Of a DNA stretch of 64,000 nt, positions 4,133 through 56,242 are shown piece by piece. The notes beneath the pieces were generated by a model. It saw only the letters and a program-made list of their open reading frames with translations, ran no database searches and was not told the DNA's origin. The translations under genes were made by a program, and so were the position numbers. Source of the stretch: Halalkalicoccus sp. CGA53. Its GTDB lineage: Archaea; Halobacteriota; Halobacteria; Halobacteriales; Halalkalicoccaceae. The DNA is taken from NCBI RefSeq assembly GCF_036429475.1, contig NZ_CP144125.1, positions 1-64,000 of the forward strand, given 5' to 3'. Each line of letters begins with the position of its first letter. Position 1 is the first letter of the stretch.

Positions 4133-5263
4133 CTATCCGGAAACAGCCGGCCGACCCTCGGCCGCGACCGTCTCGTACAGCGCGGCGAGCCGTTCGATCG
4201 AGTGCTCGACCGAGAGCATCCGCCGGCGCCGCAGACAGAGATCCGAGAGGCGCTCGCGGTCGCGCAACACCCGGTCGATCGCCCGGCGGAACGCCTCGAC
4301 GTCTCCCTGCGGGTAGTGGTAGCCGGTCTCGCCCTCGATGACGGTGTCCGAGAGCGCGCCCGCGTCGACCGCGACGATCGGCGTCCCGCAGGCGGCGGCC
4401 TCCATCGCGACAAGCCCCTGCGTCTCCGTCGGGCTGGGGAAGGCGAAGACGTCGAGCGCGGAGTAGAAGGCGGGGAGCTCCTCGCGCTCTACGAAACCGA
4501 GGAATCGGGCGTCGACACCGCGCTCCCGGGCGTGGCGTTCGAGGGCGTCCCGTTCGGGACCGTCACCCCCCAGCACGAGCGTGTACTCCGTCCCGGCGAC
4601 GGTGTCGATCAGCTCCCTCAACCGCTTCTCGGCGCTGTGACGGCCGGTGTAGCCGACGAGCGGCCTCGCGCCCTCGAGTCCGTGGTGCGTGCGGAATCCG
4701 GAGGGGTCGGTCGGGGCGAAGAACCCGGTGTCGACGCCGTTCGAGAGCACCGCGATCCGTGACTCGATCCCGACCTCCTCTCTGAGGTAGTCGCGGGTGT
4801 ACGAGGTGGGCGTGATCACGAGGTCTGCCTTCTCGAAGAACCAGCGCTCGTACCGGCGGCAGGCGAACCAGAGCCCGGTCGCGAGCGCCTCGCCGGCGAC
4901 CTTGGTCTCCGTGCGCTCGCCGAGCATCGTGTGGTAGGAGGCGATCAGCGGGACCCCCTTCCCCCGGGCGTAGCGCAGCCCCGCGACCCCGAGCGAGAAG
5001 GGCGTGTGTGCGTGGACGAGATCGGGCTCGGGCAGTCCCCTCGGGATCGGCGGCAGCCCGAGGCGGTACTGCTCGTAGAGCGGGGCCTGGAGGCTCCTGA
5101 CCGGGAACTCGTCCGGGCCCGGCTCGTAGCCGTCGATCCGGGGGAAGACGACGGGCATCCGCCCGCGCTCGTGCCACCGGTCGCGCCAGAGGTCGATCGC
5201 GTAGGTCACCCCGTTGATCGTCGGCCGGTAGAGGTCCGTGAAGACGGTGACGGTCTCGACCAT
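4133..5263 (-). CDS. Glycosyltransferase family 4 (GT-B)
   Basis: About 376 residues. The N-terminus FTDLYRPTINGVTYAID is the usual opening of GT4 enzymes that use nucleotide-sugars. Mid-protein blocks PLVGYTGRHSAEKRLRELI and DARFLGFVEREELPAFYS are typical of the donor-binding half. The C-terminal block SPTETQGLVAMEAAACGTPI carries the EX7E-type motif. It probably glycosylates a lipid or cell-surface acceptor, but the acceptor is not visible in the sequence. The start at 5263 puts the N-terminal beta strand first. The gene lies just downstream of a hypothetical gene on the same strand. Confidence 0.88.
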   Translation of the reverse strand: MVETVTVFTDLYRPTINGVTYAIDLWRDRWHERGRMPVVFPRIDGYEPGPDEFPVRSLQAPLYEQYRLGLPPIPRGLPEPDLVHAHTPFSLGVAGLRYARGKGVPLIASYHTMLGERTETKVAGEALATGLWFACRRYERWFFEKADLVITPTSYTRDYLREEVGIESRIAVLSNGVDTGFFAPTDPSGFRTHHGLEGARPLVGYTGRHSAEKRLRELIDTVAGTEYTLVLGGDGPERDALERHARERGVDARFLGFVEREELPAFYSALDVFAFPSPTETQGLVAMEAAACGTPIVAVDAGALSDTVIEGETGYHYPQGDVEAFRRAIDRVLRDRERLSDLCLRRRRMLSVEHSIERLAALYETVAAEGRPAVSG

Positions 5264-25741: not shown

Positions 25742-25911
25742 TAGGGATCGTCGTCGAAGCTTTCACTCTCCCGATCGCGGAACGACCGACACCGCTTACG
25801 TCCGAGCCGACGAGATCCGGGTGGCTACGACGGTCCCTACGAGAGATGGGAGTTGTTTTTGCCGTCGGACGCTAACGTCATGAATCGAGGGGCCGTCTCG
25901 GCCCCGCCACC

Positions 25912-42593: not shown

Positions 42594-42944
42594 ATGATAC
42601 TGGGGGCCATCCGAGCGTTCATCGGCCGAGGCGACGAGACGGAGACGACACCCGAGGGCGCGGACACCCCCCAATCCCCCGACTCCCCGGATAGCAAGCG
42701 ATCGACGGAGGAGGCGCCGAGCCCTCCCGAGACGCCCCCGTCGAACCGTGCGCTCGTTCTGCGGGCGCTCATCGCGAACGACGGCTACGCCGAGCGATCG
42801 ACCGTCCTCGAGACGCTCCGCGTCCCCCGCTCCGAGGCCGAGGCGCTGCTCGCGGAGATGGCCGAGGAGGGCGAGATCACACTGATCGAGTCGCGCCGAC
42901 GGACGCTCGTCTGTCGGAAGGGTTACGAACCGGTGACGAACTGA
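42594..42944 (+). CDS. Winged-helix protein with disordered N-terminal part
   Basis: A 116-residue protein. After MILGAIRAFIGRG, residues about 14-48 are acidic/proline-rich and probably disordered. Residues about 50-116 form a small winged helix (NRALVLRALIANDGYAERST, VPRSEAEALLAEMAEEGEIT, LIESRRRTLVCRKGY). A CATATTTATCC box (42546-42556) lies about 40 bases upstream. The stop codon at 42942-42944 directly adjoins the nested palindrome at 42945. Function unknown. Confidence 0.65.
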   Translation: MILGAIRAFIGRGDETETTPEGADTPQSPDSPDSKRSTEEAPSPPETPPSNRALVLRALIANDGYAERSTVLETLRVPRSEAEALLAEMAEEGEITLIESRRRTLVCRKGYEPVTN

Positions 42945-43022
42945 TACGGTCGGTTGTACTCTCTTACCGGTGATCACCGGCTCGAACAGGCGATCACCGG
43001 TGACCAGTTACAACCGACCGTA
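42945..43022. repeat. Nested palindrome element, copy A (78 bp)
   Basis: Outer arms TACGGTCGGTTGTA (42945-42958) and TACAACCGACCGTA (43009-43022) are perfect inverse complements over 14 bases. Inside them, ACCGGTGATC (42966-42975) and GATCACCGGT (42992-43001) form a second stem of 10 bases, with a loop containing CTCGAACAGG. It starts one base after a stop codon. It is clearly related to the element at 52414-52493. It could be a folded RNA at the end of the transcript or a DNA palindrome of a mobile or protein-binding kind. Confidence 0.85.
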
Positions 43023-43171
43023 CGAGGGGGAACGTCGGAGAGGCTCGTCGTTCTTCGATCGCGGATCGAACGACACCGGGGACGTGTCCGTCCGATGGAT
43101 ACGGTCGACTACGACAAGCCCTACGAGGGGGCGACCGCGGGCTTTTTCGCCCTCCCGTCCCAACTTCGGGT

Positions 43172-51340: not shown

Positions 51341-51991
51341 TCACGCGGGGAGGGCCGTCAGATCGGTGCGTTCGAGCAGCGTCGCCTGCCCGCGTCTGAG
51401 CCGGCCGGCCAGCGCCCGCGGGGTGATCCCGATCTCGCGAGCGACGTCCTCGAGCGTCGCGCGGCGTGGCTCCTCGAAGTAGCCACGCTGGTAGGCCACC
51501 GCGAGCGCCTCGCGCTGTTCGTCGGTGAGTCCGTACCGGTCGTCTTCACGGGGCGAGGCGGTCGTGACGCGTTCGATCGAGAGCGGTACCCCCCGTTCGG
51601 CACAGAACGTCCGGAACGCCCCGGCGGCCGCCCGATCGACGAATCGGACCTCGAAGCGCCACCGCTCGGTCGTCGCCCGTGCGTCGAGGAGTGCACCCTC
51701 CGAGCGGGCGATCGCGAACAGCGTGCCGGCCTCCTCATGGTTCCAGCGCGCGGCGAAGAGCGTCCCACCCTCGACCCGCTCGACGATCGATATCTCGTCG
51801 ATCGCGCGTTCGTCCCTCGCGGCAGCGGCGAACAACTCCGGGTCCCGGTTCCACACCCAAAAGAAGGGCATGACGGTGTCGTCGGTCGGAACGATCCGGT
51901 CGAGTTCGAGGCGTGCACCCGGCTCCCCGCCGAGCGACCGGCCGAGCGCACAGGCGCTCGTGGGGACGGTGAACTCGATACGAGTGCTCAT
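51341..51991 (-). CDS. Bacterio-opsin-activator-type HTH regulator
   Basis: A 216-residue protein. The N-terminal about 155 residues form the BAT-associated/GAF-like sensor part (EFTVPTSACALGRSLGGEPG, FFWVWNRDPELFAA, WRFEVRFVDRAAAGAFRTF). The C-terminal HTH_10 domain is clear: YGLTDEQREALAVAYQRGYF, EEPRRATLEDVAREIGITPR, ALAGRLRRGQATLLERT. It is one of the many haloarchaeal regulators of this family; its signal and target are unknown. The ATG at 51991 is preferred to the one five codons upstream. Confidence 0.9.
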   Translation of the reverse strand: MSTRIEFTVPTSACALGRSLGGEPGARLELDRIVPTDDTVMPFFWVWNRDPELFAAAARDERAIDEISIVERVEGGTLFAARWNHEEAGTLFAIARSEGALLDARATTERWRFEVRFVDRAAAGAFRTFCAERGVPLSIERVTTASPREDDRYGLTDEQREALAVAYQRGYFEEPRRATLEDVAREIGITPRALAGRLRRGQATLLERTDLTALPA

Positions 51992-52090: not shown

Positions 52091-52415
52091 TCACCGGTCG
52101 AGAAACAGCCTCGCCTCCCCGACGTCCGCGTCCTGCTTGACCTGCTCCGTCCCCGAGACGGCGTGATCGCGGATCGAAGGGAGAGCGTCTCGACGTCCGG
52201 CCAGTCTACCTCGACGAGGTTCCCCGCCGGATCCCAGAGAGCGCCGGACCGCGCCGTCGGACAGCGAGATGAGTCGTGGCTCCGAAGAGGTCTCGCCACG
52301 TCGTCGAAGATCCCCGCGCCCGTGCGATCTCGAAGACGCGCTCGACGTCGTCTGCGTGGATTCGAGTGATTGAACCCGGTCGCGACCACGTGCCGGTGAC
52401 GGATCGCCCCGTCAT
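52091..52415 (-). pseudogene. Frameshifted remnant of a VOC-family gene
   Basis: On the minus strand three frames together read a VOC-type (glyoxalase/bleomycin resistance) C-terminal half. TRIHADDVERVFEIARARG lies in one frame, GALWDPAGNLVEVDWPDVET in the next, and an acidic ending DHAVSGTEQVKQDADVGEAR to LFLDR and a stop (52091-52093) in a third. The DPAGNL-E block is the usual last metal-binding strand. The N-terminal half is missing. The nested palindrome B adjoins its 5' side. Confidence 0.65.
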
Positions 52416-52493
52416 AAGGACGGTTGTGATTGATTACCGGTGATCGCCGACTCGTACTGGCGATCACCGGTAAGAGACTACAACCGTCCTTAT
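52414..52493. repeat. Nested palindrome element, copy B (80 bp)
   Basis: The architecture is symmetrical: outer arms ATAAGGACGGTTGT (52414-52427) and ACAACCGTCCTTAT (52480-52493), a six-base internal bulge on each side, inner arms TTACCGGTGATCGCC (52434-52448) and GGCGATCACCGGTAA (52459-52473), and a ten-base loop GACTCGTACT. Both stems are perfect. Compared with copy A at 42945-43022, the outer stem differs by C-G to A-T and T-A to A-T exchanges that keep pairing. Confidence 0.88.
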
Positions 52494-52522
52494 CGAACGT
52501 CTTCCACCCGCCCGGAACCGGC

Positions 52523-53569
52523 TCAGACCGGCGTCGTCCGCTCCGCTCTCTCGGCGAGACGGTCCTCGGCGTACGCGTCGGCCGCGTCGAGGACGGTCGT
52601 CCCCTCGCGGTCTGCCCGGTCGATCAGCGCCGAGAGCCGGTCGCCGATCCGGTCGGCCTTCTCGTACGCCTCCTCGCGCCTGCCGCCGGCGTACTCCTCG
52701 TAGACGGTGATCAGCCCGCCCGCGTTGATCACGTAGTCGGGCGCGTAGAGGATCCCGCGGTCGGCGAGTGCCACGGCGTGGCGCCGCTCGGCGAGGACGT
52801 TGTTCGCCGCGCCCGCGACGACGTCACAGGAGAGCCGCGAGACGCTCTCGTCGTTCACGACGCCGCCGATCGCACACGGCGCGAAGACGTCACACTCCTC
52901 GTCGAAGACCGCCTCGGGGGCGACCGATCCCACCCCCCGTGTCTCCACGAGGTGGCCGACCCGCTCGGAGTCGACGTCGCTCACCACGACCTCCGCGCCG
53001 GCCTCGACGAGCTGTTCGACCAGGGCCGAACCGACCTTCCCCGTACCCTGGACGACTACTCGACGGTCGTCGAGCGAGTCGGTCCCGTAGACGTGCTCGG
53101 CACACGCCTCGATCCCCCGGAAGACGCCGTGAGCGGTGATCGCGGAGGGGTTCTCTAGCCCACTGCTCGTCCCGACGACGTGGTCGGTCTCGCGGGCGAT
53201 GGCGTCCATCTCCGCTGCGCCCGTATTCACGTCCACGGAGGTGACGTAGCGCCCGCAGAGCCGATCGACCGCCCGACCGTACGCCTCGAACAGCGCCTCG
53301 GACGCGGCGTCGGGTTCGCCGAGGATCACGGCCTTCCCGCCGCCGAGCGGGAGGTCGGTCGCCGCTGCCTTGTACGTCATCGCCTCCGAGAGCCGGAGGA
53401 CGTCCTCTAGCGCCGTGCCCTCCGTCTCGTAGTCGTAGAGCCGCGTTCCTCCCAGTGAGGGCCCGAGCGTCGTGTCGTGGATCGCGACGATCGCTCGCAG
53501 CCCCGTCTCGTCGTCGGTGAAAAAGGAGACCTGTTCGTGGCCCCGCTCCTCGATCGTGTCGAACACCAT
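52523..53569 (-). CDS. Glu/Leu/Phe/Val dehydrogenase, leucine-dehydrogenase-like
   Basis: A 348-residue amino acid dehydrogenase. ATTLGPSLGGTRLYDYETEG-type N-terminal block (DTTLGPSLGGTRLYDYE), the catalytic lysines in AMTYKAAATDLPLGGGKAVI, and an NAD-binding domain (RRVVVQGTGKVGSALVEQLV) are clear. PCAIGGVVNDESV and ANNVLAERRHAVALADRGIL complete the fold. The LPLGGGKAVI form is that of leucine/phenylalanine rather than glutamate dehydrogenases. It deaminates a branched or aromatic amino acid to its 2-oxo acid. The ATG at 53569 is supported by the MVFDTIEERGHEQV opening. Confidence 0.93.
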   Translation of the reverse strand: MVFDTIEERGHEQVSFFTDDETGLRAIVAIHDTTLGPSLGGTRLYDYETEGTALEDVLRLSEAMTYKAAATDLPLGGGKAVILGEPDAASEALFEAYGRAVDRLCGRYVTSVDVNTGAAEMDAIARETDHVVGTSSGLENPSAITAHGVFRGIEACAEHVYGTDSLDDRRVVVQGTGKVGSALVEQLVEAGAEVVVSDVDSERVGHLVETRGVGSVAPEAVFDEECDVFAPCAIGGVVNDESVSRLSCDVVAGAANNVLAERRHAVALADRGILYAPDYVINAGGLITVYEEYAGGRREEAYEKADRIGDRLSALIDRADREGTTVLDAADAYAEDRLAERAERTTPV

Positions 53570-55805: not shown

Positions 55806-56242
55806 GGGTCTGCGAGGGGGGCCAGCGGGATAGGCGTTCGCGGGCCGAGTCGGTTTTGCGTGTGTGGTGGATAGTGGTGAGTGGCCGATGACGAGCCCGC
55901 TCACCGAACGCGTCTAGGCAGCGCGGTATGTGGAGCCCTATGAGTGCCGAGGCCGACTTCCTACCCCTAGACTTCGATAGGAAGTGACCGGACGTCAGCA
56001 GCTGCGATAGCGAAGTGGCATATCGGGTACCGATCGTGTGGGCTCCGCAGCCACTCGCCGGTCTCGAGCCGGCAGCGCCGTCTCAGGGGGTGAGACACCC
56101 TATAAGCGGTTCTCGTGGATCGCGATACTGTCACTCGGTGATTACATTCGATCCGGACTCGACGTAGGGAACGTGCTCCCGTTGGGCGGGCTCGATCCAC
56201 CCGATGTGAGCTAGAGAGACCTGGCAATGGAGTGATCCAGCA
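55806..56242. other. Intergenic region with an 8-bp inverted repeat
   Basis: No convincing gene is present in this stretch of about 440 bases. ACTTCCTA (55956-55963) and TAGGAAGT (55978-55985) form a perfect 8-base stem with a 14-base loop. A CCTATAAGC box is found at about 56099-56107. The rest shows nothing I can assign. Confidence 0.5.

Follow-up and report, generated by a model that had tools for sequence, protein, structure and literature searches.

The window, that is, the whole stretch of DNA that was analysed, comprises 64,000 nucleotides of Halalkalicoccus sp. CGA53 (NZ_CP144125.1, positions 1 to 64,000). A perfect nested palindrome, here called B, occupies 52414-52493. A Glu/Leu/Phe/Val dehydrogenase gene is found beside it on the minus strand (52523-53569), its stop 27 bp from the right-hand duplication that flanks B, and an intact gene at 51341-51991 encodes a BAT/HTH_10 regulator. 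The initial annotation also placed a decayed VOC gene next to the palindrome. This identification is weak: the remnant shows VOC-like residues by eye, and two readings of it have no Pfam match. With Rfam, no match for the palindrome was obtained in the window; the sole match is a C/D box RNA, sR-tMet, at 55883-55954, with a score above the gathering threshold.

The layout first proposed for B, 14-6-15-10-15-6-14 with perfect stems, is borne out exactly at 52414-52493, where the letters are ATAAGGACGGTTGT-GATTGA-TTACCGGTGATCGCC-GACTCGTACT-GGCGATCACCGGTAA-GAGACT-ACAACCGTCCTTAT. The outermost A-T pair (52414/52493), previously counted as stem, is instead the inner edge of a flanking TNA direct repeat. 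The element proper is a 78-bp nested palindrome at 52415-52492, made up of two ends of about 34 bp and a 10-bp loop. Its outer stem is formed by a left arm at 52415-52427, which resembles the terminal repeat of a transposon end, and a right arm at 52480-52492. The inner stem has its arms at 52434-52448 and 52459-52473, the left one containing TTACCGG, the box with the best conservation between subfamilies. Among copies, the loop (52449-52458) is found either way round with respect to the arms. The 3-bp target duplication on the left, at 52412-52414, is TCA (TGA on the minus strand), and that on the right, at 52493-52495, has decayed to TCG (CGA on the minus strand). The predicted folding energy of B is -55.8 kcal/mol as RNA (z -13.7) and -32.3 as single-stranded DNA (z -11.8). 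No shuffled sequence folds as well in either form, so that the palindrome is not a product of chance.

A second copy in the window, A, is found on the minus strand at 42945-43022. It is a textbook case of an element at a stop codon: its TGA duplication (42942-42944, plus strand) terminates the open reading frame 42594-42944, and the far copy is CGA (43023-43025). B is an exception to this location, since it lies past the dehydrogenase stop with a decayed duplication (TCA/TCG), and its own insertion was apparently at a TGA that was not a stop. The idea that B marks a former dehydrogenase stop, suggested by an in-frame CGA nine codons downstream, was discarded because the orthologue in G002 shares the present stop. 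The locus orthologous to B in that genome has no element and is too diverged for an exact empty site. Comparison of A with B confirmed the two outer-stem positions at which both partners differ (C-G to A-T and T-A to A-T); the inner stem of A is imperfect, which corrects the initial annotation. Close to A there is a second dispersed repeat around CTTCGATCGCGGATCGAACGACACCGGGGACGTGTCC, up to about 90 bp long and 74-87% identical. It is found in the window at 43033-43123 and 25772-25843, and elsewhere at loci L030 (2330-2409), L086, L128 (1784-1883), L089 (2294-2366) and L019. The possibility of a longer composite element around A was rejected, as the shared flank looks like this separate repeat.

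Copies of the element are numerous in the source organism. With BLAST, about 29 loci were obtained in the 3.76-Mb contig and one more, and with a covariance model about 40. The same model detects copies in G001 and G002, which belong to the genus of the source, five loci in G004, and tens of loci in G009 (111 matches with both strands counted); it finds none in G005-G008, of the genus of G009. Across the halobacteria the distribution is patchy, with the element present in 81 of 292 genomes and 31 of 77 genera, and diverged versions occur in another family. Matches to the inner stem include Natribaculum breve, Natrarchaeobius chitinivorans, Natronolimnohabitans, Halobiforma haloterrestris, Salinadaptatus and Halobellus, and a further match is on a Salinirubellus plasmid. 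When copies are oriented by their spacers, the family consensus is approximately TACGGACGGTTGTAACTGGTTACCGGTGATCGCC (loop 10) GGCGATCACCGGTAAGAGACTACAACCGTCCGTA. Most copies are 78 bp, with an outer stem of 13-14 bp, an unpaired spacer of 5-6 bp, an inner stem of 14-15 bp and a loop of 10-11 bp.

Several variants of this design have been observed. Outer arms of another sequence (TAGTGTTTGCTCTC...), with unchanged TTACCGG box, geometry and TGA duplications, characterise a sister subfamily found in G015, G031, G044 and G041 (loci L042, L053, L060, L118, L119 and L121); three of its G015 members are nearly the same in sequence. A shortened version (about 40 bp) around 1484 of L195 (G015:C8) has no inner hairpin, its outer arms being joined at CCGGTTACCGG. 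In L083 (around 4458-4534, G009:C65) another inverted-repeat element (TACTGTCGGTC...GACCGACAGTA), apparently with a TA duplication, splits the palindrome, and similar ends are seen beside L099 and L044.

Most copies carry the same 3-bp direct repeat on both flanks, nearly always TGA/TCA and rarely TAA/TTA. The repeat is perfect for 73 of 106 copies in a first set and for 35 of 42 in a second; G299, the youngest burst found, has 25 of 27, and its set overlaps the 42 copies. An exact empty site is also available, in three relatives. The filled site in G004 reads ...GAGTTCGAG-TGA-[78 bp]-TGA-GTCTTTATC, and the same gene end in G008, G007 and G005 reads ...GAGTTCGAG-TGA-GGGTTTATC or a close variant, in short GAG-TGA[78 bp]TGA versus GAG-TGA. 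In G299, G144 and G298, separate sites carry identical or near-identical copies, an indication of recent spread in these genomes. Among the three options raised by the initial annotation (an RNA family, a REP/MITE-like mobile palindrome, or the site of a dimeric protein), the mobile palindrome is the right one, given dispersed copies, the 3-bp TGA/TCA target duplications and the empty site. As in other MITEs, the unit is short, noncoding and a near-complete inverted repeat (78 bp), it duplicates its target, and it occurs in multiple dispersed copies with evidence of movement. B is a member of a MITE-like mobile element family. Two observations concern rearranged copies. L294 and L302 (G299:C27 and C133) are chimeric: each combines arms of two subfamilies of the same genome. 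In L276 (G234:C1), two copies 0.9 kb apart (902794-902871 and 903738-903815) are flanked by TGA/TCA and TCA/TGA, as if recombination between them had inverted the intervening segment.

Flanking TGA on both sides might also arise without true duplication. A single-strand element of the HUH/Y1 type (IS200/IS605 or REP-like), excised as single-stranded DNA with its hairpin and a terminal TGA and inserted 3' of another TGA, would leave TGA-hairpin-TGA. The near invariance of TGA on both sides and the strong hairpins would suit such an element, and palindrome-associated IS605-type elements are plentiful in Haloquadratum (PMC3119063). The rare flanks are informative here: TAA/TTA repeats are matched on both sides in L066, L115, L020 and L278, which favours true duplication. 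With a palindromic target, and both element orientations relative to TGA in the youngest set, a single-strand element is decidedly improbable.

The target was defined with the young copies of G299. C is found at -1 in 21 of 25 (P 8e-10) and G at +1 in 17 of 25 (P 9e-7), so the target is the palindrome C-TSA-G. In older sets the copies are concentrated at stop codons. By a codon-usage gene caller, 21 of 33 copies in the source genome are at a called stop, versus 16.6% expected if all TNA triplets in noncoding DNA or at stops were used equally (P 2e-9). A simpler open-frame test, with backgrounds of 21-29%, places 25 of 33 of these copies at ends of open reading frames, along with 14 of 16 in G001, G002 and G004, 23 of 28 in other families and 13 of 29 in G009. 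For G299 the figure is 8 of 25 against a 21% background (P 0.14), and the older sets differ significantly from this young one in stop residence (P 5e-5). In G298, a young-looking family, all six sampled copies are at such ends.

Our reading of this pattern is that the element inserts into C-TSA-G and that harmful insertions are afterwards lost through selection. Insertions at stop codons would be harmless and persist because the target is also the commonest haloarchaeal stop (TGA ends 52 of the 72 called genes in the window) and the duplication restores TGA. That older copies accumulate at stops is inferred from the young-versus-old contrast, which spans different lineages, and lineage differences in insertion preference may also contribute. 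The description of the B locus as an insertion-prone spot was right in kind; what is prone to insertion is the triplet TGA, in many cases a stop codon. Machinery aimed at the stop codons themselves, for example by way of translation or of the 3' ends of genes, would explain the enrichment in many genomes (the source, G001/G002/G004 and the other families) as well as the six sampled copies of G298, a genome with near-identical copies. G299 provides the largest near-identical set, and its copies are not significantly above background at frame ends, most of them fit C-TSA-G, and G009 is intermediate. Direct targeting of stops thus appears rather improbable beside filtered insertion at C-TSA-G.

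What moves the element has been sought through its ends. Searches with end patterns in nine genomes recovered copies that were palindromic or truncated, along with a small number of solo ends; no transposase adjoins the ones that were read. Candidates for an autonomous partner, from the extra matches to the outer-end pattern that were read in G009, G004 and G000, proved to be palindromic, truncated, or the solo end L172, which adjoins a cobalamin adenosyltransferase-like gene (by eye) and not a transposase. End-pattern searches for the G015 family and for G299 likewise gave no partner, and the DDE_Tnp_1 loci examined in G000, G299, G144 and G009 lack matching inverted repeats with a 3-bp duplication. 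No autonomous transposon sharing the ends was thus seen in the genomes searched, several of which are incomplete, with DDE_Tnp_1 as the transposase family scanned. Since neither a partner nor a transposase with such ends came to light, mobilisation in trans remains an inference. A DDE-type enzyme would fit best with the symmetric target, the use of both orientations and the 3-bp duplication.

It is highly probable that B is a non-autonomous 78-bp DNA element of the MITE type, mobilised in trans and duplicating TGA/TCA at C-TSA-G. The element would consist of two transposon ends of about 34 bp joined through a loop of 10-11 bp. An enzyme acting in trans would cut C-TSA-G with a 3-bp stagger, by which TGA (or TCA) would be duplicated. 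Where the insertion falls on a stop, the duplication would restore TGA, leave the gene unharmed and allow the copy to persist. During spread the two arms would change together, either by arm-to-arm correction in the palindrome or because both ends match the enzyme.

Covariation in the stems had been taken to imply selection on folding. The covariation itself is real: 57 ungapped copies show 75 two-sided cells versus 25 in shuffles, and the true register exceeds slid controls. Selection on an RNA fold is the part that is not supported. With copies in the sense of the gene, G.U mismatches (60) are as frequent as A.C mismatches (62), which is the expectation for DNA rather than RNA. In the one orthologous pair compared, L030/L086, there are two one-sided stem changes and zero compensation. 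The recently active G299 subfamily has the same arm mismatches in nearly every copy, so an active family moves with imperfect arms, which together with the G.U and A.C counts leaves RNA-fold selection unsupported. A related rival is a structured RNA, or a 3'-end or terminator element working in both directions, that such selection keeps at gene ends. Although a very stable hairpin, the frequent exact position at stop codons and covariation are what it would produce, the features that would mark a structured RNA, a match in Rfam and tolerance of G.U above A.C in the transcript sense, were not found. The uncompensated changes in L030/L086, sporadic presence with precise empty sites, and a youngest set with only 8 of 25 copies at frame ends make it very hard to credit. 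The element may still have acquired a later effect on some mRNAs.

The two-sided changes could come from arm-to-arm correction or from joint matching of the ends to the enzyme. One copy, L186 1457-1534 (G009:C148), is a near-perfect palindrome with 34-bp arms whose spacers, unlike those of the other aligned copies, are now complementary, which points to arm-to-arm correction. A general caution applies: when copies of a DNA palindrome differ by two-sided 'compensatory' changes, this alone does not count as evidence for an RNA structure.

The loop behaves separately from the arms. In G299 the 11-bp loop is found in both orientations among copies with near-identical arms, about 10:8 in one subfamily (counted by hand) and 3:3 in the other, and copies in the source genome likewise show both. 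Small hairpin-loop inversions have been discussed for chloroplast genomes. By analogy, inversion through the inner repeats would be enough to flip the loop. Spread through a folded (hairpin or cruciform) DNA intermediate, with the inner stem-loop rejoined either way in each round, is conceivable and on the whole unlikely. If true, it would explain both the two loop orientations in G299 and the paired arm changes, and such a transposition route would be unlike ordinary cut-and-paste.

Several known systems resemble the family in part. Prokaryotic MITEs (RUP, Correia/NEMIS, ERIC and those of Haloquadratum) are also short and noncoding, with terminal inverted repeats starting TA, target duplications, dispersed and mostly intergenic copies, and long hairpins (PMC2229807, PMC3119063). 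In contrast to these, the family of B is only 78 bp, palindromic almost throughout, and has a loop that flips, and no autonomous relative was found. RUP-type elements duplicate TA, whereas the present family duplicates the 3-bp TGA; duplications of YPAL are of variable length (PMC2229807). The short mobile repeats of Haloquadratum walsbyi comprise MITEs, PATEs and SMRs, including an 80-bp SMR (PMC3119063). The SMRs (SMR-A/B, with the 80-bp HqIRS41) are likewise haloarchaeal, about 80-110 bp, with prominent inverted repeats and no known mobiliser (PMC3119063). SMRs are reported to lack target duplications and to target other mobile elements (PMC3119063), whereas the family of B duplicates TGA and resides at gene ends and intergenic sites, which sets it outside the SMRs.

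REP/RAYT palindromes of the GTAG and CGTC classes are also extragenic, and REPs can supply stop codons (PMC3733652). The present family differs from them in having no GTAG/CGTC end tag and 3-bp repeats on both sides; a REP is a palindrome of 20-40 bp, while B has 78 bp with TGA flanks on both sides, and no RAYT was seen beside the copies read. Some IS5 groups duplicate a TNA target. DDE transposons of the IS5 group and of PIF/Harbinger share with the family a 3-bp duplication, described for PIF/Harbinger in PMC2213677. No IS5-type transposase with matching ends was found, and the link to IS5 consists of duplication length and target symmetry only. The family of B is a MITE family that is new and has unusual features; the kind of system is already known.

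The core sequence was not found in the haloarchaeal literature searched, which gave one unrelated match. The family is a mobile palindrome that extends across the haloarchaeal class and for which no earlier description was found. Because its loop flips between near-identical copies, inversion of a DNA hairpin can be tested directly in archaea. For the element, the overlap of its target with the commonest stop codon, together with a 3-bp duplication that restores that codon, amounts to a safe landing place.
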